A DNA stretch of 64,000 bases, from NCBI GenBank assembly GCA_021927905.1, contig BLLK01000051.1:620001-684000 (forward strand), read 5' to 3'. The notes beneath the pieces were generated by a model. The model saw nothing but the letters and a program-made list of their open reading frames with translations, made no database searches and was not told where the DNA came from. The DNA comes from Chaetoceros tenuissimus. Its lineage: Eukaryota; Bacillariophyta; Thalassiosirophyceae; Chaetocerotales; Chaetocerotaceae. Shown here piece after piece: positions 1 to 62,124 of the stretch; position 1 is the first letter of the stretch, and every line of letters begins with the position of its first letter. A program made the translations under genes and the position numbers.

Positions 1-3000
1 TGACCATATTTCTGAACAGTTCTGATAATACCAGCCAAACTTGCTGAGAAATTATCTACTCTCGATGTTTGCGACAACTGCAATAATCTTTGAGCAGCAG
101 CTTTTTGAGCTTCTACTTCAAGGGTCATTAAATTTTCCAAAACTTCAGCATCGAGTTTATTCCATCGAACTTCATCATTTACAGTGACAATTTGTGCAAG
201 AAGATCTTGAATCTCAGGAGCTAGCTTCTGTACTACTTCCTTTGAATCTCTTACAAGTAGAGCTACGGCTTCTGAAGCTGCCTTTAGCTGACTTTCAGAC
301 TCGGCTTCAATATTCCTTCCTCCTTTCTTCTTCTTAGACTTTGATCCTCCTTGCAAAGCCATTAATGCCAATTCTCTATCTTCGTCATCTTGATCTGCAT
401 ACCTTTTGGCTTTCTTTTTGAGCTTGGCCTTCTTCCCTCTTGTATTAGCTGCACTTGCTTCACTATGTTGCGAGTTGGATTCTTCCTTTTCTGCATTCAA
501 AGCAGCCTTCCGTTTCTTGGCCTCTTCCTCCTCCTTTCTTACTTTTGCCAAAATTTCCTCGGCGGCCTCAAGCGAGCCATACTTCTTTATAAGCTTTCTT
601 TCCTTTGCGGACAATCCTTTCTTTTTCTTTGGTTTTTCTTCCGCTGAATCTGACAGAGATGCAACTGGCGACTCCTTTTCATTGGTTATTTCTATCTTCG
701 AAATTGCGTCGGTAACCTTATCTTCACTGGAGGAGTCGGAAGCTTTTTTATTTTGCTTCTTAGTTCCTTCTGCGCCTTCACTTTTTTTAGATTGTTTTGG
801 TTTCGAAGTTTCAGTTGTCTTTTTCTTCGGTAGTTTTTCTTGTTTTGACTGGGATTCTGTTTTAGCCTCATTTGCTTCTGCTCTTTCTTCCGCAGCCTGT
901 TCGAGGGCCATGAGTGCAAAATCACGTCGTTCATTATGATGTCTAGCTACACTAGCCTCGTCTCCTAAACGAAACAAAACTCCCATCCCCATTTCAAGTT
1001 GAACTGGAGGTAGAAAATTCTTCTTTCCACGAATCATAAAACCTCCAACAGATAAATATTCACCAGTTGGGGCAGTTTTGCTCACTTGATGAGATTCAAC
1101 CCACCATGCAGATGTCACCATGCGTGCGCCCCATGCCGATGATCGACAAATTGCAAAATTACCTGCTTCTCTCAGAGCCTGGTCTGACAAAGGCAAAACT
1201 TCAGTTGCACCACTTTCTGTTCGGCGTCTCTTTGCTCGCAGTATGCATGTGGGCGCTCCGTGGACATCAGCGTGCAAATACGCATCTCCTGGTCTTAAAT
1301 ATCTTTTCACTAGTTGCTCATTTTGCTGTGCATCTCTACCACCAATACAAAGGTAATTATCGCTTGTAATGAAATAAATGAACTTTTCAAACCAATGCTG
1401 TTTACGCTGAATGCTCATCATTGTAGAATATGACATTTTCTTCTTTTTCTGGGCTTCTTCAATCTGCCTTTTAGCATTAGCTTCTGCTGCCTGTAGAACC
1501 TTCTCAGATGCTTCCACTGTTTTCTCGGCTTTATCTTTTGATATACGATATTTGTCATACAGTTGACGAGCATTTCCATAAGCAGACTCTTTTAGAGATA
1601 CAGTTACATCTTTAATAGTGGGAGTATCTTCAGTGTCCTGATCCCAATTCATTGTATCTGGCAAGGATAGTGTAATCTCGTCCTTTTCGAGCATAAGTTT
1701 TTTCATGAGCAAAGCTATTGGATTTAAGTTCGACTTTTCCACTGTAACCAATTCTTCTAATGCATCCCAGTCCATTCCACTTTCTAACGCGGAATTGATA
1801 ACTCCAATTGCTTTGTCGACATCATCTGCATGCATCTCGATGAGTTGCGCACTTTCCTTCACTTTTTCCATTTCAACCTCGAGCCCTTCCATTCTCTTAC
1901 TTTGATCTTTCTTAATTTTATCTAGACGCTCAATTGCACTTTGCTCTGCCGCTTCCGCACGAATTGCTCGTTTTTGACCTTCTATCAACGAAAAGAATTC
2001 ATCTACTGCCATTGAAAAGTTATGATACTCAATATACGGCTTGTTAGCATGTTGCTTTAACAAATGAGGTTGAAACTCCTCAAACATTTTGTCACTATGA
2101 GGCATGTTTTTCAGCACTTCTGAAACATCAGCGTCTTTTTTGGTTTTCTCTTTGTACAAAACATAACCTTTGTTTTCGCCCTTTGTAAAGTTTTCAATGA
2201 TTTTGCTGCCTTCCACTTGTAAGTTTTCAATCAATGTTTCGAACTTTTGTGGAGGCATGAAATCTTCAATAGTATCTAAAGTAAACTTTGTCGTTGGCTC
2301 TAATCCTGCTGATAAAATACAATGTTCTATCAACGATGGCCCATAATGAAACACCCCACTGTTTGGTTTCAACAAAATCATTTTCAAAGTGGCCGATCCA
2401 TCGAGATCCTTCTTCTTCTTTCCCTTCTTCTTTCCTCCACCACCAGTATTTGCAAGCTGTGCTTGAATCGCTTGTTTTTCAACTAGTGCCTGCAACTCTG
2501 ATTTTGTCCATTCGTATGCCTCTTTGCCATTCATATCTAATATAGAATCTTTCGTCGTAGATTCTTCTTCATTTTCACCATTAGTTGATGACTTTGTTAT
2601 AGTGGTAGCATATGTGACAGGATAAACGTTTCCCACTCGCACTTTAACTTCCTCTTCTGCATCTTTTTCCTCTTCTTTATTAGCAACGTATTCATGCGTT
2701 CTCAAAAGAGCAAGCATTACATATTTATTGTCAGTCAAGATAAGATTTCCCATACCATACAATTCAAGAATCAGGTGACATGACTTCTCTCCAGAACCGA
2801 ATCTAAAATCCACAACACGATCCAAGTTTCCTAACTGAGTGATATTTTCAAAACGGAGATTTCTTAGATGTTTTCTTAATTTCATTGCAAAAGGCGATGG
2901 GACAGAGTTATTATCTGACGTAGTGTAGAAACTTGTCGTATGAAATCTTACTCCCGATTCAATCAAAAGCATATTTCGACTAGCGCTGGTATTCCCATCA

Positions 3001-3191
3001 TTTTCTTTATTGGCAGATGGGTTCGCGAGTTTGAAAACAAAGGTAGACTTTCCACTACTATCACCACTAATGGATGTGGAAAGAGCCATTCCGTCATAAA
3101 CGTTTGCTAATTTGTGGCCGAGTAAAGTCTGGCGAACTTGAGCTGTCATACCAGCCACATCCAGCCCATCAAATCTAGTCTTTTGCTTCAT
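1..3191 (-). CDS. NEMF: NEMF/Rqc2-like ribosome quality control protein (3' end cut by window)
   Basis: The frame is open from the ATG at 3191 to the window edge (about 1,063 codons, no stop), so the C-terminus is missing. The N-terminus starts MKQKTRF and holds an NFACT-N domain. It keeps the Asp-Arg pair (D124-R125, in GNLDRVVDF) that corresponds to the pair needed for CAT-tailing in yeast Rqc2. A coiled-coil middle is followed by the NFACT-R domain at about 590-735, with GGRDAQQNE near 617 and the block TSAWWVESHQVSKTAPTGEY near 700, both hallmarks of NEMF. Lys/Glu-rich low-complexity sequence follows, and NFACT-C begins near the edge. In this family the protein binds stalled 60S-peptidyl-tRNA with Listerin and adds C-terminal tails. 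Transcription is away from the next gene. I see no intron. Confidence 0.93.
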   Translation of the reverse strand, partial: MKQKTRFDGLDVAGMTAQVRQTLLGHKLANVYDGMALSTSISGDSSGKSTFVFKLANPSANKENDGNTSASRNMLLIESGVRFHTTSFYTTSDNNSVPSPFAMKLRKHLRNLRFENITQLGNLDRVVDFRFGSGEKSCHLILELYGMGNLILTDNKYVMLALLRTHEYVANKEEEKDAEEEVKVRVGNVYPVTYATTITKSSTNGENEEESTTKDSILDMNGKEAYEWTKSELQALVEKQAIQAQLANTGGGGKKKGKKKKDLDGSATLKMILLKPNSGVFHYGPSLIEHCILSAGLEPTTKFTLDTIEDFMPPQKFETLIENLQVEGSKIIENFTKGENKGYVLYKEKTKKDADVSEVLKNMPHSDKMFEEFQPHLLKQHANKPYIEYHNFSMAVDEFFSLIEGQKRAIRAEAAEQSAIERLDKIKKDQSKRMEGLEVEMEKVKESAQLIEMHADDVDKAIGVINSALESGMDWDALEELVTVEKSNLNPIALLMKKLMLEKDEITLSLPDTMNWDQDTEDTPTIKDVTVSLKESAYGNARQLYDKYRISKDKAEKTVEASEKVLQAAEANAKRQIEEAQKKKKMSYSTMMSIQRKQHWFEKFIYFITSDNYLCIGGRDAQQNEQLVKRYLRPGDAYLHADVHGAPTCILRAKRRRTESGATEVLPLSDQALREAGNFAICRSSAWGARMVTSAWWVESHQVSKTAPTGEYLSVGGFMIRGKKNFLPPVQLEMGMGVLFRLGDEASVARHHNERRDFALMALEQAAEERAEANEAKTESQSKQEKLPKKKTTETSKPKQSKKSEGAEGTKKQNKKASDSSSEDKVTDAISKIEITNEKESPVASLSDSAEEKPKKKKGLSAKERKLIKKYGSLEAAEEILAKVRKEEEEAKKRKAALNAEKEESNSQHSEASAANTRGKKAKLKKKAKRYADQDDEDRELALMALQGGSKSKKKKGGRNIEAESESQLKAASEAVALLVRDSKEVVQKLAPEIQDLLAQIVTVNDEVRWNKLDAEVLENLMTLEVEAQKAAAQRLLQLSQTSRVDNFSASLAGIIRTVQKYG

Positions 3192-21755: not shown

Positions 21756-21971
21756 TTTTTTCAAGTGGTAGGTAGTCTAGTAAAAATTTTTGGAGGAACT
21801 TGAGGAGTTCTTGTTTTTGCAAGAAAAGAGAATTTATGAGAAGACAAGTTCATTTCTTCATTTGCTTCGATATGTGTACCTTTTGAGATTTCCAATGATT
21901 ACCCATGACTACATTTTCTTTCCAGAGAAGGTCGCATTGTTCCAAGAAGCTCCTCCTCCTCCATATTTCAT

Positions 21972-22137
21972 GATTACCCGCGAGCTATTTACCTTAAATT
22001 CAAATGTGGATGGAGTGGAAAAGAGAAATGTGACGTCACATCGTGCCTCCTTCGTCATTCTACTTTGTCTCACATTTTTTGTAGAGCTGTTTTTTGTTTT
22101 TCTTTCAGGTAAAATTTATAGAACTACTCAATCTTGA
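21972..22137 (+). repeat. direct repeat, copy 1 (CRE-containing segment)
   Basis: About 165 bp, repeated in the same orientation at 23620-23790. Long shared blocks include GATTACCCGCGAGCTATTTA, the GGAGTGGAAAAGAGAAA block, GTGACGTCACATCGTGCCTC and CTTCGTCATTCTACTTTG. The two copies flank the cell-wall-type gene at 22373-23371. This copy lies about 220-380 bp upstream of the F-box/TerD start codon. Confidence 0.85.
22031..22038. promoter_or_regulatory. CRE-like palindrome TGACGTCA
   Basis: Perfect 8-bp bZIP (CRE) palindrome within repeat copy 1. In diatoms, TGACGT-type elements are known to mediate CO2/cAMP-responsive transcription; whether this one is used is inference. Confidence 0.5.
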
Positions 22138-22372: not shown

Positions 22373-23371
22373 CTATAAAGCGAAAAGAGTGATCGCAGCA
22401 GCAGCTGTTGCTGCGACGGTATTCTGCATTGTAGATCCAGAAGAACTTGCTGCTGCTCCTGGCGATTTAGTTGATTTTGGTGATTTCGTGCTTCCCTTCG
22501 GTGCCTTGGATGATGGAGCTGCTGTCGCCTTTGGTGATTTGGTTGCCTTCGGTGCCTTGGAAGATGGAGTTGAAGGAGATTTGGATGACTTTGGTGCCTT
22601 GGAAGAAGGAACTTTACTACTTTTGGGCATCTTGGAGGATGGAACTCTACTTGACTTTGGTTGCTTAGAAGAAGGAGATTTGCTTGACTTTGGTGCCTTT
22701 GAGGATGGAGTTGCTGGACATGTAGCAAATCCATTAAAATTGAGAAAATCCCAATAGGTCCCAAAGTAGTCATACGAAGGACTATCACCTAAGCCTACGT
22801 AATAGACAAGAGGCGCATAGTATTCTAGGAAAATATCTCTGAAGTTTTCACCTCCACAAGAAGGAGCCACACAATAAGGACGATTAACATGTGTTGAAGT
22901 AAATGGAAAATACTCATCAGGGCAAAATGTCAATGTAACCCTTTCTACAACTCCTCCATTTTCCTCGCATCCAGGTACTTCAACGGTACTAAAATCGCAA
23001 TTCCATTCATCATCGCAATGTGTGAAGATAACTTCATAATAATCGTCAAAATCCATTGGATAATCGTTGAGGTAGAATGCAACTGTATCAAAAAAGCATT
23101 GGTAGGAAGAATCACTTCCATTTCGTGTAGCTGGTGGCACGTAATCATTGGCAGTGATGAGATTTTTAGCAATAGCATCGAACTCCTTCTGTTTGCTAAT
23201 ACGTTGACCCAAAGAAACAAGAGATCTATGTTGATTGAAGTCAGAGAGAGATCTGGTACCTTTTTCCTCAGATCTCTTTTGGAGCACTTTGGTTGTAGCC
23301 GCAGACGCTGAAGTAAGCTGCAAGAGGAACGCGATTAGAAATGTGGACTTCATTTTGTTTAAAGATAACAT
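22373..23371 (-). CDS. secreted Cys-containing protein with KxxK/Ser/Pro repeats and GPI-type tail
   Basis: 332 aa. The signal peptide is at about 7-24; M7 (MKSTFLIAFLL) may be the true start. The ordered part (about 85-218) holds eight cysteines (C92, C119, C125, C135, C150, C167, C172, C218) and is Tyr/Phe-rich. Residues 221-303 are repeats of the type PSSKAPKSSK, PSSKMPKSSK and PSSKAPKATK, giving strings of K-x-x-K spacing. A Ser-rich linker and a hydrophobic C-terminus (about 313-332, VAATAAAAITLFAL) resemble a GPI-attachment signal. Regular KxxK spacing among Ser resembles the lysine clusters of diatom silaffin-type, silica-associated proteins, so a cell-wall role is plausible. No enzyme motif. 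Confidence 0.7.
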   Translation of the reverse strand: MLSLNKMKSTFLIAFLLQLTSASAATTKVLQKRSEEKGTRSLSDFNQHRSLVSLGQRISKQKEFDAIAKNLITANDYVPPATRNGSDSSYQCFFDTVAFYLNDYPMDFDDYYEVIFTHCDDEWNCDFSTVEVPGCEENGGVVERVTLTFCPDEYFPFTSTHVNRPYCVAPSCGGENFRDIFLEYYAPLVYYVGLGDSPSYDYFGTYWDFLNFNGFATCPATPSSKAPKSSKSPSSKQPKSSRVPSSKMPKSSKVPSSKAPKSSKSPSTPSSKAPKATKSPKATAAPSSKAPKGSTKSPKSTKSPGAAASSSGSTMQNTVAATAAAAITLFAL

Positions 23372-23619
23372 GTGATTGTGACAGGAACTGTATTGTGAGC
23401 AAGAAATATATTATGTCAACCAAGTTTGTTTCATAATTAGTTTTGATGTTTTCTACGCAAGGTCTCAACCGTTTCACGAGCTAAACCGTTACTAGATTTT
23501 TCTAATTTAATGCTATCTTGATTCCAACGTTTCTAAAAAGACATATTTAGTCCCATTCATTGGGAGGGCAATTATATTTGAGAACCGTTGCATCTTCAAT
23601 CCCATATCGGTTTGATATT

Positions 23620-23790
23620 GATTACCCGCGAGCTATTTACCACCAAGGTCAAATGTAGCTATGGAGTGGAAAAGAGAAATTGTGACGTCACATCGTGCCT
23701 CCTTCGTCATTCTACTTTGCCTCATTTTTGTTGTAGATGAGCTGCATTTCTTTCAGATAGATAAAAAACAAAGTACTATTCAATCTTGAA
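23620..23790 (+). repeat. direct repeat, copy 2 (CRE-containing segment)
   Basis: Second copy of the segment at 21972-22137, same orientation, differing by scattered substitutions and small indels. It lies about 80-250 bp upstream of the ATG of the M20 amidohydrolase gene. Confidence 0.85.
23683..23690. promoter_or_regulatory. CRE-like palindrome TGACGTCA
   Basis: Same palindrome as at 22031, at the matching position in repeat copy 2, about 180 bp before the M20 amidohydrolase ATG. Its retention while neighbouring bases diverged is consistent with function but does not prove it. Confidence 0.5.
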
Positions 23791-23855
23791 ACAATACTGC
23801 CTTCTTTCCAGATAGATAAAAAACAAAGAACTATTCAATCTTGAAACAATACTGC
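23750..23855 (+). repeat. 55-bp tandem duplication in the M20 gene 5' region
   Basis: Two adjacent copies with a period of 55 bp, each containing CAGATAGATAAAAAACAAAG, CTATTCAATCTTGAAACAAT and ACTGC. The second copy ends about 15 bp before the ATG at 23871, so the duplication covers the probable 5' UTR or core promoter. The end of repeat copy 1 (CTACTCAATCTTGAT, near 22121-22137) matches only part of the unit. Confidence 0.85.
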
Positions 23856-23870
23856 ATTTGTTGTTGAACT

Positions 23871-25552
23871 ATGAAGCTTTGCAGACTGGCACTATTCTCT
23901 CAACTGCTGCTACTAGCATCTGTAGATGCTTTGCCATTTGGATCTAGAGTGAGCAAGGATTCTGTAGAAGACGATTCTTCAAATGATGGTGTGACTCAAG
24001 AAAAGAAAAGTGTTCGGGGAGCAACGTCAAAGGTTGCCAGGCAATCTTCCACTGATGTACTAACAAAGTTTTATGCGCAAAATGGAGATGATGCATCGTC
24101 ACTTGAACTCAAAAATGAAATCCACAATCTAGCAAATAGTACGAGTATGCAGCATTTTTTGGTCACTGCAAGGCGTTCACTTCATAGACATCCAGAAGTA
24201 ATGTATCAAGAAGAATTTACTTCGGAAGTTATTCAAGATATTTTAAAAGAGCTAGATATTCCGTTTACAACTGGTTGGGCAAAGAATGCTCATCCCGATG
24301 TCTTTCCAGGAGAAGGAGGATATGGAATTGTGGCGCATATCGGTAGTCAAAGTGAAGATCAACCATGTATAATTTTAAGGGCTGATATGGATGCACTTCC
24401 AATTCTCGAACAAACCAAATACATTGATGAATTCAAAAGCAGAACAGATAATAAAATGCACGCGTGTGGACATGATGGGCATGTGACTATGCTATTGGGT
24501 GCAGCTGCATTATTGAAAAGTGTCGAAGCAAAAATACCTGGAACAGTTCGACTGTTGTTTCAGCCCGCAGAAGAGGGTGGTGGTGAGTTGTTAAATAAAT
24601 ATGTAATGAATGTTGGATATTTCTAACTTTACTTCTTTGCTTCATTGAATAGCTGGCGGAAAGCGTATGGTCGAAGAAGGTGCAGTATCACTGTCTCCAC
24701 AAGCACAGCATGCTTTTGGAATGCATGTTTGGCCCACACTTCCAACTGGAGCTGTCGCTTCAAGATCAGGACCTCTTCTCGCTGCAGCAGAAATGTTTGA
24801 AATTCATGTAGAAGGCAAAGGGGGTCATGCTGCAATGGTGAGTACATTATTTGTTCTATATATGTAATGAATGTTGGATATTTTTAACTTTACTTCGTTG
24901 CTTCATTGAATAGCCACATTTGACTAAAGATCCTATTGTTGCAGTATCATCTTTGGTTCTTAATTTGCAGACAATTGTTGCGAGAAATGTTTCCCCATTG
25001 GAGTCAGGCGTTATCAGCGTCACACAGGTAACATCCGGTGATGCATTCAATGTTATTCCAGCCAATGCTATTGTGAAGGGTACTATTCGAGCACTGAGTA
25101 CAGAGCGTTTGATGGAATTGAGAGATAAAGTACAGAGTATGACAATGGCGACTATTTCCGATGTTTATGGATGCAATGCAACAATTTCCTTTTCCCCAGA
25201 CTTTTATCCTCCAACTGTCAACGATGAGAACTTATTCCAATGGTCAAAAGAAATTGGTGCACTGGTGTCCAAAGAAGGTACTTTGAGAGACATTGAACCA
25301 ACCATGGGAGGAGAAGATTTCGCATTTATTGCAGAAGCGGTTCCAAGTACTTTCTTCTTAATTGGACAAGGAAGTGGAGGATCGGAAAATGAAAAATACC
25401 ATGTTCCTAGAACTGATTTTGGACTCCATCACCCAAGTTTTGCACTAGATGAGCACGTCATGCCGATCGGAGTTGAGTTACACAGTAACCTTGCTATCAG
25501 ATCCATTTTAAAACTAGCTTTGGAGAAGGAGAATACTACCGCTGAAAAGTAG
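23871..25552 (+). CDS. secreted M20 amidohydrolase (IAA-amino acid hydrolase/ILR1-like)
   Basis: Three exons: 23871-24582, 24653-24837, 24914-25552, giving 511 aa. The signal peptide is about 1-20. The metallopeptidase motifs are complete: IILRADMDALPI (about 167-178), ACGHDGH (198-204), QPAEEGG (231-237), MHVWP, GKGGHAAMPH across the second intron, and near the C-terminus PTMGGEDFAF and HHPSFALDE. These are the dinuclear-metal ligands and dimerisation-domain core of the M20D family, which hydrolyses N-acyl or IAA-amino-acid conjugates. The substrate here is unknown; a role in processing auxin-like conjugates or N-acyl amino acids outside the cell or in the ER is inference. The two introns are near-copies of each other. 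Confidence 0.92.
24583..24652 (+). repeat. intron 1 of the M20 gene, near-copy of intron 2
   Basis: A 70-nt GT-AG intron. Its last 53 nt match the last 53 nt of intron 2 with two mismatches, including TATGTAATGAATGTTGGATA, a TAAC branch-point-like string and the acceptor TTGCTTCATTGAATAG. The donors share only GTGAGT. Confidence 0.9.
24838..24913 (+). repeat. intron 2 of the M20 gene, near-copy of intron 1
   Basis: A 76-nt GT-AG intron. The 3' 53 nt are almost identical to those of intron 1, while the first about 20 nt after GTGAGT differ. The flanking exon sequences are unrelated, so this is not a duplication of an exon-intron unit. Confidence 0.9.
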
Positions 25553-46480: not shown

Positions 46481-46981
46481 GATTATGGGGATTGGAACAT
46501 TACAAGATTCATACACATGATGCAATGATATATTTAGTAAACATATTTGATTTTCGATTAATATTTGGACACAAAGATTTCCTTTTGAGGTAAAAATAAT
46601 GTAAATAGCAATTAATCAATTCTAAAGAAGGATGAAGAGGAGCATAATGTATGTGATAGTTCAGAGTCAAATTAAAGCATGAAGAATATCGCGTTGCCTT
46701 CATGTTTTTATGAAAACAGTGTTTTAAAAGTGTAGGGTGATTGGAGTGAAGCCAATCTGAATATTACGTCGCTTGATTATGCAGATTGAAAATTGAAAGT
46801 AGGGGAGGCCATTTTCACGTCAAAAGTCTTTTGTTCTTTTTGCTTCTTTTTGGTTCTTTCCAACTGGGAGAGAAAATCGAATCATATATCAAGCGCATTC
46901 GTCGTCTTCACTCCACACTCTCTACCGATTGATCATTAAATCATTGCGGTAACGTAGAACACCATCTATCTTCGTCTGGCT
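46481..46981. other. intergenic, 5' region of MYND gene M1
   Basis: About 500 bp. It includes the MYND-cluster upstream element at 46806-46860; nothing else recognised. Confidence 0.5.
46806..46860 (+). promoter_or_regulatory. MYND-cluster upstream element, M1 copy
   Basis: GGCCATT followed by TTTGTTCTTTTTGCTTCTTT and TTGGTTCTTTC, about 120-175 bp before the M1 ATG. The same arrangement precedes M2, M3, M5 and M6 and in part M4. Confidence 0.6.
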
Positions 46982-48222
46982 ATGGGAAAGAAAGGAAAGA
47001 GAAGTAGACGCAAGGCAGTAACTGCTGCAGATCGAGGTAAGTTGCAATCGTCTAGGCGACAGCTAATCTCTTTGAAAGACCTGTGATGTAATATCGATTT
47101 GATTCACTACACTTTGTAATAGCCTCGATTGTTGCTTTGCAAACAAAAATTGATGAATCAATTGTCAAAATTAATGAAAGTGGTAACCTCCATCTTTACT
47201 CTGAAGCTGTTGATGAGCTAAGAGCACTAATCCAATTGATTGAGACTGAAATGCTCGAGTCAAGCAATACGATGCATGAGATGAAGAATTTACAAAGCTG
47301 GTTCTTTGAAACCAAAATGATAGCTTATTCGCATCTTATGATGGGAGAATTCGATCGTCACAACTTTGATGATGCAATTCAAATTTACAAGGAACATTTT
47401 GAGAGACGTAATATCGATATGAATATGAAGGTTTTGTACCCCCAGATTCCTAGCTTGCAATTGAAATACCACGAAGCTCTTTTGAGGCAAGGTAAAGGAA
47501 GCATAGATACCTTCATCTCACTCAGTAAGTCGTTGATTACCCATGGAAGAAAAGACATTGATGATCTTGAGATAGATTTGTATCGATATGCTGATTTTCT
47601 GAGGACAATAAAAAAATTTGACGCAGCAATAGTTCTTGGTAAACAATTGGAAGCACTAAGCGGCGACAGATTGTCATTAGCCACTACATATTTAGAGCAG
47701 TATATAGTTGGCGATAAATCCCTCCCTAAAGATGTCTTTCTATATATGAAACATGTGTTGCGGAAGCATGAGAAAAATCGTTTCTATACTGTCGGTTCTA
47801 TGCTGATGCTAGCACAATTGACTTATTTATTCCATCAATTTTACAGTAACACAGAAGTAATAATGAGGAAAGCTATTGGTTATGTCGAAGAGTACTTAGA
47901 TTGCATCTCGAAAGCAAAAATTCATTGCATTACATGCAATCAAACTGCAACTGAGTCTGATGTACAATTCGTCTGCAGTGGGTGCCGAGTAGCTTGCTAC
48001 TGTAGTATCGATCATCAACGCATGACTTGGAAAAAGGAAGCAGAGAAAGGGATGCGTTTTGGGCATGAGATTCTCTGTCCAGTGATGAAAGCTTACAGAA
48101 AGTGGAGACATGCACATGATAATGGTGACAATGACCGAGTATCAAGATTGAGACGACGTTTTGAGAGGGAATGTTTGTATTGTTTGTCAGATAGCCTTGG
48201 TCTGAGGGACAAGTGTTTCTAG
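46982..48222 (+). CDS. variant-MYND zinc finger protein M1
   Basis: Exons 46982-47036 and 47123-48222 (86-nt intron, phase 1), 384 aa. Exon 1 encodes only MGKKGKRSRRKAVTAADR, a basic head. The body (about 25-280) is helical and TPR-like, with motifs NFDDAIQIYKEHFERGN-type and KKFDAAIVLGKQLEALSGD. The MYND-like finger uses C287, C290, C303, C306, C312, H316, H333 and C337; the sixth ligand, normally Cys (YCSxxCQ), is His (YCSIDHQ). The loop between W321 and H333 is longer than usual. A conserved basic C-terminus (RLRRRFERECLYCLSD) follows. MYND fingers usually bind proline-rich partners; no SET or other catalytic domain is present. Function unknown. Confidence 0.85.
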
Positions 48223-48249
48223 AAGTAGAAATCATTCACATCTTTCTTG

Positions 48250-48720
48250 ATTCTTCAAACTCTTGGGAAGAAATAACAATAACCTAATACATTTCATTGA
48301 CTTTGTAGGTAGTAAAAGCAAAGTAAACCAATGACAATCTTGTCAATTTGTGTTAATCTGCAATAATTTCTACTTTCGTGGAAGATAGAATGTCTTTCTG
48401 AAGCTGTCTATTTGTACTACGAAAACACAATCATAATAATAGCATTTTTATTAAGAAGCTCCAAGCAGTAACAATAAGAATACTGCATATTATTTGGAAT
48501 AACTAGTAGCAACATATGAAGACCTCTTGCACGTAGCTATTAGATACTTCATTTTATCTCAGTGAAATGAAGATACAATAGTCTAAGTAAACCGTACCTT
48601 AGTCATTATCACTTTCTTAGAAGAGCTCTTTTCATATGCAAGGCCATTTCTGAAAAATTCGAAGTGGGACTGATTGTTCTTCCGGCTTCTTTTTGTTCTT
48701 TTGGCGCCAAAGTGAAAACG
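48250..48720 (+). repeat. intergenic homology block, M1-M2 copy
   Basis: Intergenic sequence between M1 and M2 that is collinear with 61480-61950 between M5 and M6. Shared strings include GGGAAGAAATAACAA, TTTCTGAAGCTGTCTA, AAGATACAATAGTCTAAGTA, AACCGTACCTTA and CTTTCTTAGAAGAGCTCTTT. Confidence 0.8.
48640..48703 (+). promoter_or_regulatory. MYND-cluster upstream element, M2 copy
   Basis: AAGGCCATTTC, then TTGTTCTTCCGGCTTCTTTT and TGTTCTTTTGGCGCC, about 160-220 bp before the M2 ATG. Closest to the M6 copy. Confidence 0.6.
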
Positions 48721-48861
48721 AAAGAATGAAAGCAATTGATTGAATTTGGTCAAAGCGATTCAGTACCTTCCTATTTCTAGTTACCACGGTGCTATTCTTC
48801 ACTCTAATTGACATAGAATAAATGAATAAATGTAGCACACCTTATCAACTTGTGTAATACA

Positions 48862-50076
48862 ATGGGAAAGAAAGGAAAGCGGAGTAGACGCAATGCTGCG
48901 AAGGAAAATGAAGACAAAAGTAAGTTCTATCGATGCTTACATTACCGAAAGCTCGCATGAAAATCATTCACCAAGAGCGTCTCTTTTCTAGTTGTTTTCA
49001 AGTGTAAGCAGCTTACGGACAGAGCAATGGCTAGCAATCAAAACATGTTGAAGTCCCAGGCCCGTAATGAATTGAGAGAAGCTATTCGAATTCTAAAGTC
49101 AATCGAGCACTCGAATAGCAAAAGAGTAATTGTAGCAATCCCTGTTCTTTATAGTATACTAATGGTTTGGTGTGTCAATGATTGTCACTACCATGCAGCT
49201 CTTGATTGCTACAAGTACTTTGAAATGCGTGGAGATATCCAGAGTATGGAAAGCGTGAAAGCTTATCATCATATGGAAAGCGTGAAAGCTTATCATCAGC
49301 TTCTCTTGTTGAGACTGGGACATCCAGAGTGGAATATTTCCCATATAATTGACTGGTTTGAATCTAAAACCAATTCCGACAAGAAACTTAATGGTGAAAT
49401 TCTCTTCCACATTGTGAGTGCACTTCGTGTCAATAAGGAATTTGAATCAGCCATCCTACTAGTGAAAATGTTTGGTGTCAAATATTGGGAACCATCCCAA
49501 CAAAATTTATCCTTAGCATTGACGTATCTAGAAGGCTATCGTTTAAATCATATCTTTATGGACTCAAACGATTTATATTTCTTTCAAGGTTACAATTTTC
49601 TGGAAGACCAACAAAATGGTTTGTATTTGATGGTGCTGAAGCTCTTTCTCCTACACAAACACTTCGACGAAGAAGAAAATATTGAGCAAGCTATTGCTCT
49701 CATTAAATTTTATCTCACGAACACTGACTTGCCATTTTCCGGTCTTGATGATAGCTTGGATGTGTGTCAAACTTGTGGTCAAGCTGTTACCAGAAACGAT
49801 GTTCAACTTGTTTGTAGTGGCTGCCACGTAGCTTGCTACTGTAGTCTCGACCATCAACGCATGACATGGAAGAAAGATGCGATACATGGAATGCGCATTG
49901 GTCATGAAATACTCTGTCCGCTTTATAAAGTATGCAGAAAATTTGTCTCTGCAACCAGGAATGGAGATGTGAAGAAGCAGGTAAAGATGGAAAAACGTTT
50001 GGACAGAGCATGTCTGAAATTTCTTTCTCATGGCTTAGGCTTGAAGGATAAGTGCTTCCCTTGTGAAAATAAATAG
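48862..50076 (+). CDS. variant-MYND zinc finger protein M2 (divergent paralog)
   Basis: Exons 48862-48919 and 48992-50076 (72-nt intron, phase 1), 380 aa. Exon 1 encodes MGKKGKRSRRNAAKENEDK. The helical body is much diverged from M1, but the finger keeps the spacing C278 to C328 with VACYCSLDHQRMTWKK, including the His replacement. The tail LDRACLKFLSHGLGLKDKCF matches the family. There is a perfect 27-bp in-frame tandem duplication (49246-49272 and 49273-49299, last base differing) encoding MESVKAYHH/MESVKAYHQ. Placed downstream of M1 as M6 is downstream of M5. Confidence 0.82.
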
Positions 50077-50248
50077 TGAACTGGCACTGCTTCGGAGAGG
50101 AAGGACAATTAGAAATTGAAGAAGTCTGGTAACATTTACTAGCATTTTTTTGAAAGCTACATTATTTACAAAGATTTTATGAGAGTCACTATATATATTG
50201 TGTTATTTTGGCAACTAGAGAAGAAATAGGTAGTCTAATTCTTGTTGT

Positions 50249-53200
50249 TTACAACCCACTATCATCTAGCTCAGCTAGCATAGTCTTGAACTTGTCATTC
50301 TTTCGTACGCGAGCAACCAAATCAGCAAATGTTGTACAGCTATTTCAATCAAGGTTTGTGAGATAGGGGACCAAATTTATCAAAGACATCAAAAATGCAA
50401 AATAAACTTACTTCATAGCATCCGTAACTTTGGAAAGAACTACCATGACCCTGACTGCACTCTTTACCCAATCCTTTGCTCTATCTAACTCAGCTCCCTT
50501 TTTGTTTCCCATCTTTTTATTCATAGTCTTTTCTAATGGAGCTACGAAGGTCTCAACAGCTGCAGCAATTTCACTTGGGTACTTTGAACTCATGGCAACA
50601 ACAATCTGATGAGATTGGAGTTGAACGTCTTCTTTATCTCCGAGACCTGAAGCTAGAATTGGTATGAATTCATTGATATCAATTGCTTGAGGACACTTGT
50701 CGAGGCATGTAGAGAAAATGCTGAGAGCAGCTTTTCTAATTGGCAATGCATCATCAACCTTTTGCTTGAACGGTCCGAGGTCAATGACTCTCTCCTCTTT
50801 CAGAACTGCAAGTCCGTGCAATGCTGGAACAATTGTCTCTTTCATGAATCCAAGTACAAGGTCGCTGTTGTGATGAACGGCAGAGTAAATCATTAACAGG
50901 CATGCATTCTTTACAGACAAGTCTTCTTCCTTTAGAAGCTGAAGAAAAGTTGGTATGTATGGAAGCACATGCTCCGTTTGACATTTGTTTGCAATAGCAT
51001 ACTTGACAGAACCAAGGACAGTCGCGCAGGTAATTGGGTCTTCGCCATTCATTTTAGCAACTACCAAACTTTGAAGATGAGGTAGAATGACGTTTGGTTC
51101 CAAGCATGCAAGACAACCCATGCAATCAGCAACCATGGTTCTAATTCCTTCTTCTTCATCAGCCAAATGACGATTGAGATGAGGGAGAATTTGTGCAATA
51201 CTTGGACCAATATTGCCCCCATACCCTTTCTGGTGACAATAAATCATTTCTTTGAGACCAGTCAGTAAGAGGTATTGTTTATTTTGGCCATTCTCCTCGA
51301 GAGCTGCTAGAATCTTTGGAAGGAATTCCTCTTTGGAGCACACTGATGCACGACCAAGACCATACGCTGCGGCGTGTTTAATATCCTCGAAAGCAGAGTC
51401 AAACAACGAGATAAAAATGCTATGAAGACGATCAGTTACTCCCGGAAGCAATCCAAGATGAACTCTACTGCCTAGATCACCTGATACACGAAGAGCGAGC
51501 TGGATATACGGGCAATTCTCAGTTGTTTGATTATCCTTGAGTGACTCGAGAGAAGAGATTAGATCTTCTACAACTGATTTTCTGTCGTCGTCACTCACAA
51601 CAGCTGTGATTGCGGCAATACATTTCGAAATGTTTGCAATGGATAGTTTACCACTTGGACTGTTCACTTGACCCTCAGTCAAAACAGGTAGACCATCTTT
51701 CAGCGCCTTCAAAAGATCTTCGAAGTTGACAACGTTTGAGGTAATCAGTTGCTCCATCACAACTAAGAGAGAGTCAAGAGCCTTGTCTTGTAATAGAGAA
51801 GATTTTGACAGATTGAGTAAGGAAGGAAGCAAGAAAGTTCTAATATCCGAGACTTCAGAATCGGATAATGTAACAGTAGTAAAAATTGTAGAGCAAACCT
51901 TGAGAGCCAAATGACTAACATGGAGGTCACTATCTACAATGCAATTGCTGATCTCCTTCAAAACATTACCATAAACACCGCCATTGACCCCAGAAGGACT
52001 TAGCGTTACAATAGTATCCAAGCACTGAAGGGTAGTCTGTAACAAAGAACGACTGCTTTGGCGACAAAGACAACCTAGTTCAGTGATGATATCATTGATG
52101 ACTGAAGATGTATCAACGTTGGCTTTGATAACTTTGGAGATTGTGCGGATGGCAAAGACTCGAGTATTGTCGTGCTTCAATCGCACTAGAATCAACGACA
52201 GCAATCTTTCTCTTGAGGCGACATCAACATATTCGTGCAGGTTAGAGAAAAGCGCTGCAGCTGCTTGTAAAGTGGTCTCCTTTACCCCCTGATCAGAGTC
52301 ATGCAGGGCTAGGCGAGGCTCAATGGCTTCATAAAGAGTTTTTGTAACAGATCCTTTCTCTTCTGCCGAAGCATTGGCATTGACAACAAGAGATGGTATC
52401 TCTGTTAGAATTTGGAGAGATTCAGCTGTGATCTTATACCAATTCTCTTGAAGAGTTTTGCAAAGCTCTGGTAAGATGTCCTCAATTATACAGTCTTTCA
52501 TACTCTCTGGTTTATGATTTGGAGATGTAATCACAGTATGGATACATTGCAAACTATCAAGCTTCAACGACTTGACAGATGCAGCACTAGTATCAGAAGA
52601 GCTAATGATATCTCTGACATGTCGTAGCAAAATCTTGATTTCTTCTTCATTTCCAATTCCACCTGGAGCTTTACAAAGTGTAGAGATTAGAGACAAAGCT
52701 GCTACCTTTGTGCGGTTTCCAGCCTTCTTTTCTTTTAGTTGAGCCTCACATCCCTTGACAACGAGAGGCGCATATTTTGTTCGAAGATCAATGACAGTAT
52801 GTGCTGCATCTCCTGTAACATCCATGGTATCATCAGACTTCAAAATAATATCTCCAGTCTTTGCCGCCTCGATGGTGTTCCCGAGTAAGGTAGAAAAGCA
52901 ATGTACAATATCAACACGGCAATTTTCATCACGCTCTTTGAATCTATTCACAAGTGCAGCTGCTACAGTAGTTTTGTATTTCTTATTCTTTCTCCACTCA
53001 TACTCTTCAGTCCAGAGCTTGGAAGGATCATTAGCTGCAATCTTGACAATTGCATTCAAAGTACGAATAGCACTTCTTCTAACATTCCAAGATTCATCGT
53101 CTTCTTGGTCGTCATCGTATTCGTCTTCGTCGTATTCTTCTTCTTCGTCGTCGTCCATATCATAGTCTTCTTCTGATCCTGCGTTATCATTATCATCTCC

Positions 53201-54596
53201 TTCAGAATTGTTTTCATCTCCATAGGAATAATTAGGATCATGACGCATGTATGCCAAAGCTGTGTGAATAATGACAGGTAAATACGGTTGAATTTCAACA
53301 GGCTTGCTCAATACAAAAGATTCGTATCCAAGCAAACAAGCTTCTCTCAATTCATTTGCCAAAGCGATAGCCTCTTCGTCTTCTTCGTCCGAATCTTCCA
53401 TCTCATCCGAACCCTCATCATCGTCATCATCATACATGTCATCACCTGCAGCTGCATCGGCAGGATCACAAAATCTAGAAAAGATTGGTACTAGACGATC
53501 AATCTGTTCCTGTCCTAGACGATGACCGACTTGACCAGCAACAGTACACATGGTCCGAATCAAAGCACAAGTATCCTTTGACTTGCAATCAATCAAGTCT
53601 TTATTATCAGCATCATTTCCCATGATTCTTCTTGATTTTCTCCTTCCACTTTTTCCAACAGCTTCGGAACGATCAATTTGCATTAGCAAACTCTCAACAA
53701 GTCTCCCTAGCAATTGATCCGAAATGACAATACTAAGATTCCCAATGGTAGTCCCTGCACGTTTCCTCACAAGTTCCGATTCACAAGCCAATTGTCTCAA
53801 GGTAACTTCCAACAAAGTCAAATGCTGCTGTGTAATGAAAGAAAGAGCTCCAAATCTAGCCAACAATTCAGTCAAAATCTCAAGACAAGCCAGGGTAATC
53901 TGCTCCGCTACAAGACTATCTTCCCTGATAGCTTTCGCCTTGTCTTTATTTTTAGAAGTCGCCTCGTACAAACTTGCTTTGGACAAAATATCCGGTGAAT
54001 ATTTCCGAATCCCATCGAGTAACCCAGCAGCTAATCTACTACTGACAATATCTCCCATGTTCATAGGAACAGTCTGTACCAATGTCCGAAGTCCAATAGT
54101 GTACACATCTCTCAATGCACCATTATCCTTGTCAAGAACGAGACTTGCAAGTCGTTCTGCAATCGCCACGACCATATCTTCATGGACGCAGGTAACCAGT
54201 ACCCCCAGAGTTTTGACAGCAATGGCTTGTACATCATTGGAAGAATCATCTACGAGACGTAAAACAGCGTCACAGATTTTCTTTTCGGATGCAAAGTCAA
54301 TCATTTGAGTTTGAGAATTGGAAGTAGCGGCGTTGGGGTCTTGATTCATGTCATGGTCTTCTGTGTTTCTTGTACGTGAGACGTTTCGTCCAGATGCAAT
54401 GGCGTGCTTTCGGAGTGCATCGCATAGATCCGATGTAGCCATGTAGCGTTCATCCTGTAGAGAGAGACAAGGTTAGGAATACAGAGTATCCATGGAAAAA
54501 AAGAGAAGGTATTGCTTTGATTGATTCATTCATTCGTACCTTATCGTAGTGCTCCGTCTTTTTCAAAAGATCAGAGATTGAGACGGCGTTTGACAT
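50249..54596 (-). CDS. CAND1: CAND1, cullin-associated NEDD8-dissociated protein
   Basis: Three exons: 54596-54540, 54454-50412, 50339-50249, giving 1,396 aa. Exon 1 encodes MSNAVSISDLLKKTEHYDK and joins DERYMATSDL, matching the CAND1 N-terminus. At the 3' end the long frame would stop at a TAA lying inside a GTAAGT donor; splicing a 72-nt intron adds 30 residues (NCTTFADLVARVRKNDKFKT then MLAELDDSGL). HEAT repeats run throughout. An acidic insert (EEEEYDEDEYDDDQEDDESW followed by NVRRSAIRT) matches the acidic loop of animal CAND1. The C-terminal TIP120 region is present. In other eukaryotes it exchanges SCF substrate receptors on cullin-RBX1. It interrupts the MYND array on the opposite strand. 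Confidence 0.92.
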
Positions 54597-55030
54597 TTTT
54601 CAAATGAGCCTCTATTGAATTGAATATTAAATCTCTAAACTGTTGAGTATAGAGAGAGTAAACAAGTCAAAAGTAGAATAGAAGCAATCAATCAAATCAA
54701 AGGCACATACATTCGCATCGTCTCTACTGTATTCAGATCTTTCACTGATCTTCTGTGGCGTTCTCAATCTCAGTTGTTGTTGGATCTTGATATTCATTTC
54801 TGGCCAGCTGCATTGCTATTTAGTAAAAATACCCCTCTTTTCTAGGGGGTAAAAATAGCATCCTACACAGCGACGGCAATACATAAGAACTTCGCTTCAA
54901 CAGAGAAGAACACAAATGAAAGATATCGAAATCTTTTCATTGGATGGCACTTACAAAGACATATTCCATACAAATACAAACAAACTACAAACATATAGAC
55001 ACCATTGCATCTCCTACATCGCTATAGAAA
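54597..55030. other. divergent promoter region
   Basis: About 430 bp between CAND1 (minus) and the SLOG-domain gene (plus). No ORF or RNA gene seen. Confidence 0.4.
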
Positions 55031-56006
55031 ATGTTGACAATCAATAGAGCGCTGTTTGGATCTTTGTTGCTGATATTTGCGGTACTGCACCATGTGGCAT
55101 CTTTTACATCACCTAGTTCTTCTACACGTCGCCATTCCATGAGAATTGTTGGACATTCACATCATTTGCAACCGACTCCTCAATCAAGACCTTCTTCTTC
55201 TAGTCTCTATGCAAACTCAAAAGAAAATGACGATAAAGATTCGGTATCTTCATCCGAGGCAATGGAAGAAACAAACGAATTACTAAATTTTGCAGGGGGA
55301 TTGGGAGAATTCGACCCGAACAAAAAGATTCCAATCAAGAGAGAGGTTCTAGTGGGTAATCCACAATTAAAAGTCAAGAAGAAGGATCAATCCGTTACAG
55401 CTATTTTACAAGAGTTGGCAAGTATTCAAAAACAGGGACCTAGGAAATATTGTATCTTGGGAACGAGGCATTGTAGTTATCTTCATCAGCAAATTATTGA
55501 ATTGTTGTAAGTACCTTTTATAGGGTGATTTGTCATTTTTCAAGTCAGCCTTGTTGTGTATAGAGTTTTTGAATAATGTTGCTCCAGTATTTCATTTTTG
55601 TATCTAATTCTCTCACATCGTCACTTGTTCTATTCCTAGATCATACGCATTGGTTCTATCCGAGAATCATGTCTACACTTCAGGAGCAGGAGGTACAAAT
55701 GCAGCAGCAATCAGAGGAGCTCTACGTGCAGAACGACCAGATTTGTTGACAGTAATTTTGCCACAGTCATTAAGTAAGCAATCCAAGGAGTCGCAGGAGT
55801 TGTTGAAGGATGTCACGGATTTGATTGCCATGCCTCAAAATGATGAAATGAGTTTAGATGTTGCTAGTAGGCTTTGTAATAGCAAATTGTTGAGTGAGAC
55901 GGATCAATTGATTGCATTTGCTTTTCATGCAAGTAATACTGTGATTGAAGCTACGAAGGAAGCAAAGAAGTTGGAAATGCTTGTAACTATGCTCTTTTTG
56001 GATTAG
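55031..56006 (+). CDS. plastid-type DprA/SLOG-domain protein
   Basis: Two exons: 55031-55506 and 55640-56006 (133-nt intron), 280 aa. Signal peptide (1-24) ending VAS-FTSP, with Phe at +1, suggesting plastid import, then a Ser/His-rich transit stretch. The domain at about 138-280 has a Rossmann-like SLOG layout: KYCILGTRHCSYLHQQIIEL, then NHVYTSGAGGTNAAAIRGA (a GG-containing nucleotide-binding turn), LLTVILPQSL, and a C-terminal helix (LIAFAFHASNTVIEATKEAK). Similar single-domain proteins occur in cyanobacteria and algae, and DprA-type domains bind DNA or nucleotides. The specific function here is unknown. Confidence 0.65.
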
Positions 56007-56686
56007 GAAATATTTGTTTTGGGATAAGAAAGAAGTATAGGCTATGATTTTGGAGCTATTTGAGATGGGAAGAGTGCAAATGCAAGGAAAGAAAAGTGCT
56101 TACTGGAATGGACATAATGGTGGTATTATAGAAGGATTGGTAATTGAAAATAAGAACATGACTACAGGGTACAGAAATGCATAGAAAGATTAATCAAGTG
56201 TAATTTCAATCATGTTGTAGTAGAGGAAGGTTTAAAAATGAAAACAGTGTATTCGTATAGATACGAACATAGCAAACGATATTCAAGAAAGCCTTGAATA
56301 TGCTTTCATCTTTAATGCCAACCAAAAATCAGCATCGAGTTTGAAGAAAGCTTGAACAGTTGCATGAGCATTTTTTCAATAAGCGATCTTGTGTGGAATT
56401 TGGTGAATTCATTGTTTGTTGGTCATACTTAAACGGAAAGTCCTATACAAAGAAGCATAAGGTAGCAGTCTTCACCTGTTGTTTCAACTTTAAAACCCAA
56501 TGTCAGGCCATTATTGACAAATGGCCTTCTGTTCTTTTGGCTTCTTTTTTGTTCTTTCCAGAACTGAGGGGGGAAATCGATTTTTCAATCGTCATCACTT
56601 TACACTCTCTACCAATTGATCATTCAAAATCGTTGGAATAATTAGATACTAATCGTACGTTTGGCTACAGCACCATCTATTCAGCT
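56007..56686. other. intergenic, 5' region of MYND gene M3
   Basis: About 680 bp. Contains the upstream element at 56500-56560; no other gene recognised. Confidence 0.5.
56500..56560 (+). promoter_or_regulatory. MYND-cluster upstream element, M3 copy with inverted repeat
   Basis: Inverted repeat GGCCATT / AATGGCC around a 7-nt loop, then CTGTTCTTTTGGCTTCTTTT and TTGTTCTTTCC, about 125-185 bp before the M3 ATG. Nearly identical to the M5 copy. Confidence 0.65.
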
Positions 56687-57951
56687 ATGGGGAAGAAAGG
56701 AAAGAGAAGTAGACGAAAGACAGTAATTGCTGCAGATCAAGGTAAGTTTCATTCGTGCAGGTGAAAGCTAATCTCTTTGAAAGACCTGTGATGTAACATC
56801 GAATCAATTCACTACACCATGCAATAGCTTCTGTTGTTACTGCGCAAACAAAAATTGAAGAATTGATTGAAAAATTTCAAAAAAGTCATGACCTCAATCT
56901 ATATTCTCAAGCTGCGGATGAGCTAAGGGAAGGAGTCCAAGTGGTTGAGGCAACAATGCTCGAGTCAAGCGATACGCTGTTTAAAATGAATCTTCAAGCT
57001 TGGTTCGTTGAAAGTAAGACATTATTTCTTTCGAATCTAATGGTGGTTGAGTTCGATCGTGACAACTTTGATGGTGCAATCCAAATTTATAAGAATCTTT
57101 TTGAGAGAGGTAATATCGATATGAATATGAAGATTCTATCGCCGATTTTTCCTACCTTGCAATTGCAATACCACGAAGCTCTATTGAGGCAAGGTAAAGG
57201 AAACATAGATACCTTCATCTCACTTAGTAAATCACTTATTTCTCGTGGAAGAAAAGAGAATCTCGAGCTGGATTTGCTTCGATCTGCCAATTTTCTGAGG
57301 ACAGTAAAACATTTTGACGCGGCTGTAGTTCTTGGTAAACAATTGGAAGAACTTATTGGAGACAGATTGTCTCTAGACACTACATATCTCGAGCAGCATA
57401 TTCATATAGGTGGTAATAAATCCCTCCCTGACGATTACTTTCTAAATATGGAGTATGTGTTACAAAAGTATGAGAATGATGGTTTTAATGCTGATAATGC
57501 CGGGTGCATGTTGGTGCTTGCACAATCAACTTATTTACTCCACCAGTTATCATCCGATCACTCAGAGGAAGTATTCAGGAAAGCTATTGTTTTTATTGAG
57601 GAGTACTTAGCTTCATTCTGGATATTTAAAAGTCATTGCAATACGTGCAATCAAACTGCAACTGAATCTGAGGTACAATTCGTATGTAGTGGATGCCGAG
57701 TAGCTTGCTATTGTAGTATCGATCATCAACGGATGAGCTGGAAGAAAGAAGCAGTCAGAGGGATGCGTATTGGACATGAGGTGTTGTGTCCAGTGATGAA
57801 AGCTTACAGAAGGTGGAGACATGCTTGTTGCAACGATAAGGATGATGAGGACGACAAGGTCTCAAGATTGAGACGACGATTTGAGAGGGGATGTTTGTAT
57901 TTATTGTCGGATGACTTGGGTCTGAAGGACAAGTGTTTCAAGAAGAAGTAG
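56687..57951 (+). CDS. variant-MYND zinc finger protein M3
   Basis: Exons 56687-56741 and 56828-57951 (86-nt intron, phase 1), 392 aa. Exon 1 encodes MGKKGKRSRRKTVIAADQ. The body is close to M1 and M4 (SQAADELREGVQVVEATMLE, NFDGAIQIYKNLFERGN, HFDAAVVLGKQLEELIGD). The finger spans C289 to C339 with ACYCSIDHQRMSWKK, again with His as sixth ligand. The tail FERGCLYLLSDDLGLKDKCF is conserved. The acidic insert KDDEDDK sits just before the basic tail. Confidence 0.87.
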
Positions 57952-58346
57952 ACACCATAGACAATATTTTAAATATCTTTTTGTGAGGTTCTAGTGTAGG
58001 CTGCCACATCCTCCTTGAAAGTAAACATGCGATAATAGAACAAAAACATTTTTTGTGTACCATAGTTATCTTGAGAAACAGTAATTTTAGAACATTGGAA
58101 TGAGATAGATAGTTATAGCATCACAGTTTACCTCATACCTTTTTACGGAAATAATATTTGCTGTTGAAAAAAGCAAAAGCAAATCAATTTCAAAATGTAA
58201 GGCCATTGTTGACATTGTATTCTTTCTGAACTGAGAAAGAAAATTGAAAATCAATCTTCAGTACACATTGTGTAGCAATCGATCATTCAATCATTACAGT
58301 GAAGTACAACACACCATCATATAACTAGAACTCCATCTATCTTGTC
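57952..58346. other. intergenic M3-M4, homologous to the M4-M5 spacer
   Basis: About 395 bp. Strings such as ATAGTTATCTTGAGAAACAGTAA and GAGATAGATAGTTAT recur in altered form after M4 (59720-59780), pointing to tandem duplication of M3/M4 with their 3' flanks. A shortened upstream element (GGCCATTGTTGACATTGTATTCTTTC) lies at 58201-58226; the pyrimidine repeat seen in the other copies is missing. Confidence 0.6.
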
Positions 58347-59595
58347 ATGGGTAAGAAAGGAAAGAGAAGTAGACGGAAGACAGTAACTGCTGCAGATCGA
58401 GGTAAGTTACCACATGAATGTGAAAGCTAACCTCTTTGAAACACCTGCGAAGTAACATCGAATCGATTCACTACACCATGTAACAGCATCTATTGTTGCT
58501 GTACAAACAAAAATTGACGAATTGATTGTCAACAAAACTATCAAGAGTTGGCGCCTCAGTCTTTTTTCTCAAGCTGCGGATGATATACGTGAAGGAATCC
58601 AATTGATTGAGGCAACAATGCTCGAGTCAAGTGATACCTTGCTCAAGATGAATCTACAAACTTGGTTCGTTGAATGCAAACAATTACTTTATTCAAATCT
58701 AATGCCTATCGAGTTCAGACGACACAACTTTAGCACTGCAATTCAAATTTATGAGAATCTCTTTGAGAGAGGTAACATCCAAATGAAGATTTCTTCTCCT
58801 AGGTTTCTTAGCTTGAAATTGCAATATTACGAAGCTTTCTTGAGGCAGGGTAAAGGAAGCGCAGATACCTTTATCTCGCTCAGTAAATTGCGCATTACCC
58901 ATTCTCATTCATTGAAACATGATGATACTCTTGAGAAGGATTTGATTCGATCTGCTGATATTCTGAGGACAACAAAACATTTTGACGCGGCTGTAGCTCT
59001 TGGCAAACAATTAGAAGAACTAACCGGAGACAAAGTTTCCCTTGCCACTACACATTTGGAGCAGTATTTAGTTGGCGATAAAGAATTTCTCCCTGAAGAT
59101 TTCGCATCAAATATAGCCCAATTGTTGCAGAAGCAAGATAATGACGGTACTGCTTCTTCCGCTTCTATGATGGTGCTTGCACAATTGACATACTTACTCC
59201 ATCAGTTATATGATGACACAGAAGGAGTGGTGAGGACAGCGATAGGTTTTATTGAAAGGTTCTTAGACTCGTTCTCGAGAGCAGAAACTCATTGCATTAC
59301 ATGCGGCCAAGCTGGTACCCCCACCGATGTACAACTTGTCTGCAGTGGATGCCGAGTTGCTTGCTACTGTAGTATTGATCATCAACGGATGAGTTGGAAG
59401 AAGGAAGAAGTGAAAGGAATGCGTTTTGGGCATGAGGTGTTGTGCCCAGTGATGAAAGCCTACAGGAAGTGGAGACATGCGAACGATAATGGTGATAATG
59501 AACGAGTCCCAAGATTGAGACGACGTTTTGAGAGGGAATGTTTGTATTTATTGTCGGATGGCATGGGTCTGAAGGATAAATGCTTCCAGAAATAG
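58347..59595 (+). CDS. variant-MYND zinc finger protein M4
   Basis: Exons 58347-58401 and 58487-59595 (85-nt intron, phase 1), 387 aa. Exon 1 encodes MGKKGKRSRRKTVTAADR. Body as in M3 (SQAADDIREGIQLIEATMLE, HFDAAVALGKQLEELTGD). The finger spans C288 to C338 with ACYCSIDHQRMSWKK; the first knuckle differs (CITCGQAGTPTD). The tail RRRFERECLYLLSDGMGLKDKCF is identical to that of M5 over most of its length. Confidence 0.87.
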
Positions 59596-60180
59596 ATAAT
59601 ATTGGATAGCTTTTGTATGTGAGGTTCAAGTAAAATGAAAACGGATAAAAACGGTTAGGCGCATTTTACTGTAGACTGCGATGGTCTGTTATCTGCCTTG
59701 AAAGTATAAAACTAATGTGTATAGTTATTTTGAGAAAGAGTATGTAACTTTAGACTATGAATAAGATAGATAGTCATTACATATAGTGCCTCAAGACTGA
59801 CAAAACGCTAGAATATCTGTATACTATAACAATAGCACTTCACAGTCAAAGCTAAAAGCGACCTTGACTGAACTTCGTGACTTTCCTTCTTTCAATGATT
59901 GATAAAGCAATACTTCAATAAAAAGTATTGTAGGCGCGGGCAGTATTCATCTGATCAAATCTGATGTTTCAACTTCAACTGAAACTCACTGAAACCCAAT
60001 GTCAGGCCATTATTGACAAATGGCCTTTTGTTCTTTTGGCTTCTTTTTTGTTCTTTCCAATACTGAGGGGGAAATCGAATTCTGTTCGTCATCACTTTCA
60101 CTCTCTAGAATAGTACATTCAACCGTTGGAGTAATTAGATACATAATCGTACGTTTTGCCAAAGTGCCATCTATCCAGTA
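59596..60180. other. intergenic, 5' region of MYND gene M5
   Basis: About 585 bp, with homology to the M3-M4 spacer in its first part and the upstream element at 60001-60060. Confidence 0.5.
60001..60060 (+). promoter_or_regulatory. MYND-cluster upstream element, M5 copy with inverted repeat
   Basis: GGCCATT / AATGGCC inverted repeat, then TTGTTCTTTTGGCTTCTTTT and TTGTTCTTTCC, about 120-180 bp before the M5 ATG. Confidence 0.65.
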
Positions 60181-61472: not shown

Positions 61473-61479
61473 ACATCAC

Positions 61480-61950
61480 TGATTTCTTTCTTAAAACTTT
61501 TGGGAAGAAATAACAAACCGTTAAATTTCATGAAGTTTGTAGGCATGAAAGGCTTTAGTAAGCCAATGACAAGTTTTGATCTATAATAATTTGTATTTCC
61601 ATGGAAGATTGCACGTATTTCTGAAGCTGTCTAGAACCACAACGAAAGTACAATAATAATAATAATAACAGCGTTTTTATAAACAAGCTCCAGCAAGTAA
61701 TAGCTAAATAAACATATCATTTGAAAATAATTTAGTGTCATCCATAAACGAACTAGACATATGGAGACCTCTTGCTCATAGCTTACAGATACTACATTTA
61801 TCTCAGTCGAAATTAAGATACAATAGTCTAAGTAAACCGTACCTTAATCATTTTCACTTTCTTAGAAGAGCTCTTTTCACGCAAAAGGCCATTTCTGAAA
61901 ATTTCGAAGTGGGATTGATCGTTCTTTTTGCTTCTTTTTGTTCTTTGGCG
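61480..61950 (+). repeat. intergenic homology block, M5-M6 copy
   Basis: Collinear with 48250-48720 between M1 and M2, diverged by substitutions and small indels. It includes the upstream element of M6 at its end. Confidence 0.8.
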
Positions 61951-61953
61951 CCA
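61884..61953 (+). promoter_or_regulatory. MYND-cluster upstream element, M6 copy
   Basis: AAAGGCCATTTC, TCGTTCTTTTTGCTTCTTTT and TGTTCTTTGGCGCC, about 170-240 bp before the M6 ATG; closest to the M2 copy. Confidence 0.6.
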
Positions 61954-62124
61954 AACCTGCACTATTCTTTTCAAGCAAGCAATTTTCATGTAATCACTTC
62001 AACAACTTTTACTTCCATAACACCATAGACAGATAGCCAAGCAAGTGTAGCACAGTTACAAAGAAGGAAACAATATTGTACTTGTTTTAAATAAGTACCT
62101 AGGGACAAAGGATCTATTCAAAGC

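Follow-up and report, generated by a model that had tools for sequence, protein, structure and literature searches.

Near-identical 3′ parts of two neighbouring introns in a Chaetoceros tenuissimus M20D gene: a candidate product of local DNA copying

Results

The M20D gene and its surroundings

The window, a 64,000-nucleotide stretch of the genome of the diatom Chaetoceros tenuissimus (assembly GCA_021927905.1, contig BLLK01000051.1), carries on its forward strand an M20D/ILR1-like gene (23871–25552) with three exons, two introns and a 511-aa product (Table 1). The genome searched totals 41,027,912 bases, with a GC content of 38.9% in the window and of 40.3% for the coding part of our sample, next to 41.0 Mb, 38.9% and 40.3% for the published NIES-3715 assembly of this species (PMC8613185). 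Pfam domains Peptidase_M20 and M20_dimer were both recovered in the protein, whose best solved relatives were ILR1-like 2 (1xmb, E 2.6e-82) and YxeP (1ysj, E 9.6e-70). Since the joined exons (QPAEEGGAGGKRM; GKGGHAAMPHLTKDP) align to 1xmb and 1ysj with no gap across either junction, the two intervals listed in Table 1 are introns by homology, with putative splicing. Each of them breaks the reading frame if retained, and a small genome-trained HMM recovered both to the base. No second genomic locus (paralogue) for the M20D protein was found in the 41 Mb genome, and the six M20D relatives found on IMG/VR contigs, with 38–40% identity, are too distant to be close orthologues.

Directly upstream of the M20D start codon lies a 55-nt tandem duplication (23742–23851, 91%), and a 171-nt duplication (21971–22137 and 23619–23789, 81%), one copy of which (23619–23789) extends into the M20D upstream region, flanks a minus-strand gene; the 5′ side of the M20D gene thus also shows general short local duplication. 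The product predicted for the flanked gene (22373–23410) is secreted and has a lysine/serine/proline repeat at its C-terminus (SSKAPKSSKSPSSK...); our impression is of a likeness to diatom silaffin-like or cell-wall proteins. Farther downstream, at least five related genes form a tandem family (46945–63324), four of them with a homologous intron of 68–86 nt (at 47037, 56742, 58402 and 60236).

Table 1. Exons, putative introns and shared intron parts of the M20D gene (positions in the window).
Feature	Position	Strand	Remarks
Exon 1 of M20D (ILR1-like amidohydrolase)	23871..24582	+	Protein start MKLCRLALF...
Intron 1 (putative splicing), 70 nt, phase 1, GTGAGT...TAG	24583..24652	+	Gap-free homology at junction; HMM
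Donor-proximal part of intron 1 (13 nt)	24583..24595	+	Only GTGAGT in common with intron 2
Copy A of the 57-nt common intron 3′ part	24596..24652	+	Terminates at acceptor
Exon 2, 185 nt	24653..24837	+	Frame shift if skipped
Intron 2 (putative splicing), 76 nt, phase 0, GTGAGT...TAG	24838..24913	+	Gap-free homology at junction; HMM
Donor-proximal part of intron 2 (19 nt)	24838..24856	+	27-mer 24838–24864 unique in genome at up to 3 mismatches
Copy B of the 57-nt common intron 3′ part	24857..24913	+	3 mismatches relative to copy A
Exon 3	24914..25552	+	Stop codon TAG at 25550–25552

The shared 3′ stretch

A direct repeat of 58 nt (24596–24653 and 24857–24914, 95% identity) occupies the 3′ parts of both introns and ends one base beyond the acceptor in each. 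Counted up to the acceptor, the introns match over 57 nt with 3 mismatches, which extends the preliminary description of two near-copies differing at 2 sites over their final 53 nt, a count that we recovered as well. In a BLAST search of 234 kb from this genome the pair reached an E value of 1.6e-16, and the 51-mer core had 0 matches in 100 shuffles of the window. Two further points of that description stood up: no relatedness was detected between the exons flanking one intron and those flanking the other, identity halting at the acceptor plus the single base, and the donor-proximal parts differ, since beyond GTGAGT the 13 and 19 nt align like shuffles (fraction at or above the observed value, 0.75–0.86). 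The common GTGAGT is weak evidence because this motif opens 10 of the 58 well-flanked introns in the genome sample. The sequence shows a relation by copying, in which one copy stems from the other or the two share a source.

Copy number and age

BLAST of each intron against the whole genome, at E values up to 10, returned just the two M20D copies; the tool skips very common words, which is not expected to affect a sequence as rare as the one searched here. A 35-nt pattern allowing up to 3 mismatches likewise found two places genome-wide (reversed control, 0). The earlier interpretation, intron gain by copying or intron-intron gene conversion, survives in part: the copy relation, one from the other or from a common source, is retained, and the membership of an introner-like family is not, since BLAST and the pattern search of the 41 Mb genome revealed no copy beyond these two. 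An identifiable source sequence is nonetheless present, the sole similar genomic sequence being the other intron of the same gene; either of the two may have been the source. A genome-wide search with the 5′ part of intron 2 gave no second place, and the divergent 5′ parts had no exact match of at least 9 nt within 3 kb. Neither intron has a repeat longer than 4 nt between its ends, nor an inverted repeat within it.

The 3 differences at 57 sites correspond to a Jukes-Cantor distance of 0.055 (0.011–0.17), or 3.5 times the heterozygosity of strain NIES-3715, 1.56% (PMC8613185). If the rate of a different species is taken over, 4.77e-10 per site and generation in Phaeodactylum (PMC6604790), and neither subsequent conversion nor constraint is supposed, the two copies would have diverged about 6e7 generations ago (1e7–2e8).

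A second intron with a local template

The frequency of such cases was surveyed in 170 kb taken elsewhere in the genome together with the window, i.e. 234 kb or 0.6% of the genome. A small HMM trained on long ORFs predicted 70 introns in these 234 kb, each of which was searched against the whole sample; introns outside the M20D gene and the AAA-ATPase gene described below are HMM predictions alone. Beside the introns of the tandem family (47–60 kb), two credible independent cases emerged, the M20D pair, for which the window itself had been picked, and an intron of the AAA-ATPase gene, which comes from the 170 kb outside the window.

This second intron, 65 nt long, lies on the minus strand of a VCP/NSF-like AAA-ATPase gene (L018:6996–7060, L018 being G000:C14:200001–210000). 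Over nt 3–58, i.e. 56 of its 65 nt, the intron copies in antisense, at 84% identity, L018:5976–6032 (HIDKLTETLEQRKKEREQN), a coding exon of a neighbouring coiled-coil gene on the opposite strand, 1 kb off. In 41 Mb the intron sequence was found at two places only, the intron itself and this exon. The joined exons align to VCP-like ATPases with no gap at the junction, and a short direct repeat bounds the intron, with GAAAAG at the exon end and GAAAAAG at the intron end (GAAAAG|GT...GAAAAAG). The AAA-ATPase intron was thus likely born from copied local DNA, which makes gain by local copying credible as a plausible process in this genome. Its template is an exon, and overwriting by a sister intron therefore cannot be invoked there.

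Three other candidates were set aside. A match to an intron end in L028 (E 0.001) proved to be a coding repeat (DCQGDxRCAQRS) mis-called as an intron; the matches of L018:1463–1517 concern a predicted intron within a many-copy repeat stretch, which makes the call doubtful; and the pair 2935–3028 and 3168–3261 of L021 (G000:C14:1600001–1610000) has no long coding frame around it. The latter is a 94-nt duplication (91%, 233 bases apart), treated here as non-coding and adjoined by more tandem and inverted repeats.

Near-copies at E < 1e-6 no more than 5 kb away were found for 6 of the 70 predicted introns (among them introns of the gene family and a questionable prediction from a repeat-rich region), for 110 of 1500 intergenic control pieces of intron-matched lengths, and for 73 of 1500 exon segments. 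Introns are thus not clearly enriched in local copies relative to intergenic DNA, and because the two rates are about the same, no intron-specific process is needed; the plain reading is that general short local duplication on occasion hits an intron or gives rise to one.

Discussion

Origin of the shared stretch

The reading that we favour, and to which we would give an even chance, is that one of the M20D introns was gained by short-range templated copying of local DNA. Break repair or a template switch would have placed a copy of the 3′ three-quarters of an intron at a site about 260 bp away within this gene, the copied tract bringing with it the branch region and the acceptor; this copying would most likely have created one of the two introns, whose donor and first ~20 nt might derive from filler or from later change inside the new intron. 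The repair mechanism, and gain as opposed to overwriting, are what we infer here from the 57-nt match (95%, E 1.6e-16), from the end of both tracts at the acceptor plus one common base, and from the continuity of the exons. A copied acceptor would account for tracts that end there, a register that an unguided overwrite would need to hit. Gain is further favoured by the AAA-ATPase intron with its clear local source and by the many unique intron positions of Thalassiosira, which have been read as widespread intron gain (Roy and Penny 2007, as cited in PMC3488318). Counting against gain are the donor-proximal part, which was not copied and for which a search within 3 kb gave no source, the lack of any flanking repeat longer than 4 nt marking either intron as an insertion, and the rate of local copies in introns (6/70), which is about that of intergenic DNA (110/1500).

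Some of these points would suit an overwriting event, a serious contender with a probability slightly above one third. Here two old introns would already have been in place, and ectopic gene conversion or a template switch mediated by microhomology would have replaced the 3′ part of one with sequence of the other, selection purging exonic changes so that the tract stops at the acceptor. The sharing is partial with independent 5′ parts, short identical runs stand at the junctions (TATATG-like on the 5′ side, TAG plus C on the 3′ side), and the non-coding DNA of this genome commonly shows generic local copying. However, conversion requires a prior homology that is near absent between unrelated introns, the replacement must fall exactly in register at the acceptor, and no other pair of introns within one gene showed such sharing in the 234 kb, save the mis-called coding repeat of L028. 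That exact 3′ end, together with seamless exons and a GTGAGT donor in both introns (10/58 introns), would also be expected from full-length RNA-mediated copying (reverse splicing, or repair templated by intron RNA) with a later complex change close to the donor. We consider this route improbable: the 5′ parts resemble shuffles against 95% identity elsewhere, so that the route has to add a further replacement event. Sharing limited to the 3′ three-quarters of the intron also speaks against a seamless reverse-spliced copy of full length.

Near-identical introns at two unrelated exon sites would speak for membership of a transposon-like introner family, a very slight probability given two copies in one gene, no more in 41 Mb (BLAST; 35-nt pattern, 3 mismatches), and no terminal repeats or target-site duplication seen at the M20D introns. 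Target-site duplications or terminal inverted repeats occur in many, not all, introner families. We rejected this assignment on three grounds, the copy number (at least four introns in different genes being expected), the lack of end-to-end similarity and the lack of end repeats. Least probable of all is a functional RNA element, e.g. an intronic snoRNA, held similar by selection with no recent copying. The same stretch does recur in two introns of one gene, but Rfam gave no match (the top hit, at E 2.1, lay elsewhere and on the opposite strand), folding was no better than that of shuffles (z −0.08 and −0.61) and differed between the copies, and a functional element would still have had to be duplicated.

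Beyond this gene, short-range copying could have a broader role. Scaled up, the single unbiased case in 170 kb would correspond to about 240 such introns per genome (Poisson range 6–1340), provided that the sample is fair. It is possible, though in our view doubtful, that new spliceosomal introns arise in C. tenuissimus at an appreciable genome-wide rate from copies of ~55–60 nt within ~1 kb, with introns or coding exons of either strand as templates, and that template-copying break repair, not transposons, is the main intron source.

Comparison with known systems

The M20D pair offers a small example of introns arising, or being overwritten, by local DNA copying; it is real, modestly interesting and of a kind already known. 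To our knowledge, most newly gained introns have not been traced to a source. A young intron with a nameable template, joined by a second one whose template is a neighbouring coding exon, makes the question of intron sources testable in a culturable diatom.

Among known processes, ectopic gene conversion and microhomology-mediated template switching explain a partial tract, sharp ends and a short distance; they would, however, create no new intron, and they need in-register pairing between otherwise unrelated introns. In Daphnia pulex, end joining at staggered double-strand breaks produced single new introns with filler that is local or of unidentified source (PMC4202315; Li et al. 2009, as cited there), leaving short direct repeats as a footprint (PMC4202315). 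The AAA-ATPase intron resembles these gains by the short direct repeats at its ends, whereas the M20D introns lack clear end repeats; the source is mostly unidentified in Daphnia, while here it is a neighbouring intron (M20D) or a neighbouring exon (AAA-ATPase). Intron transposition and introner-like elements in fungi and Micromonas (PMC4457414, PMC3879977; survey in PMC9860276) share with the M20D pair near-identical introns at unrelated exon positions, but their families comprise four or more copies over many genes, in contrast to two partially shared copies in one gene. The published survey set the family minimum at four introns (PMC9860276), and as its screen keeps families of at least that size, pairs like the one described here would have escaped report.
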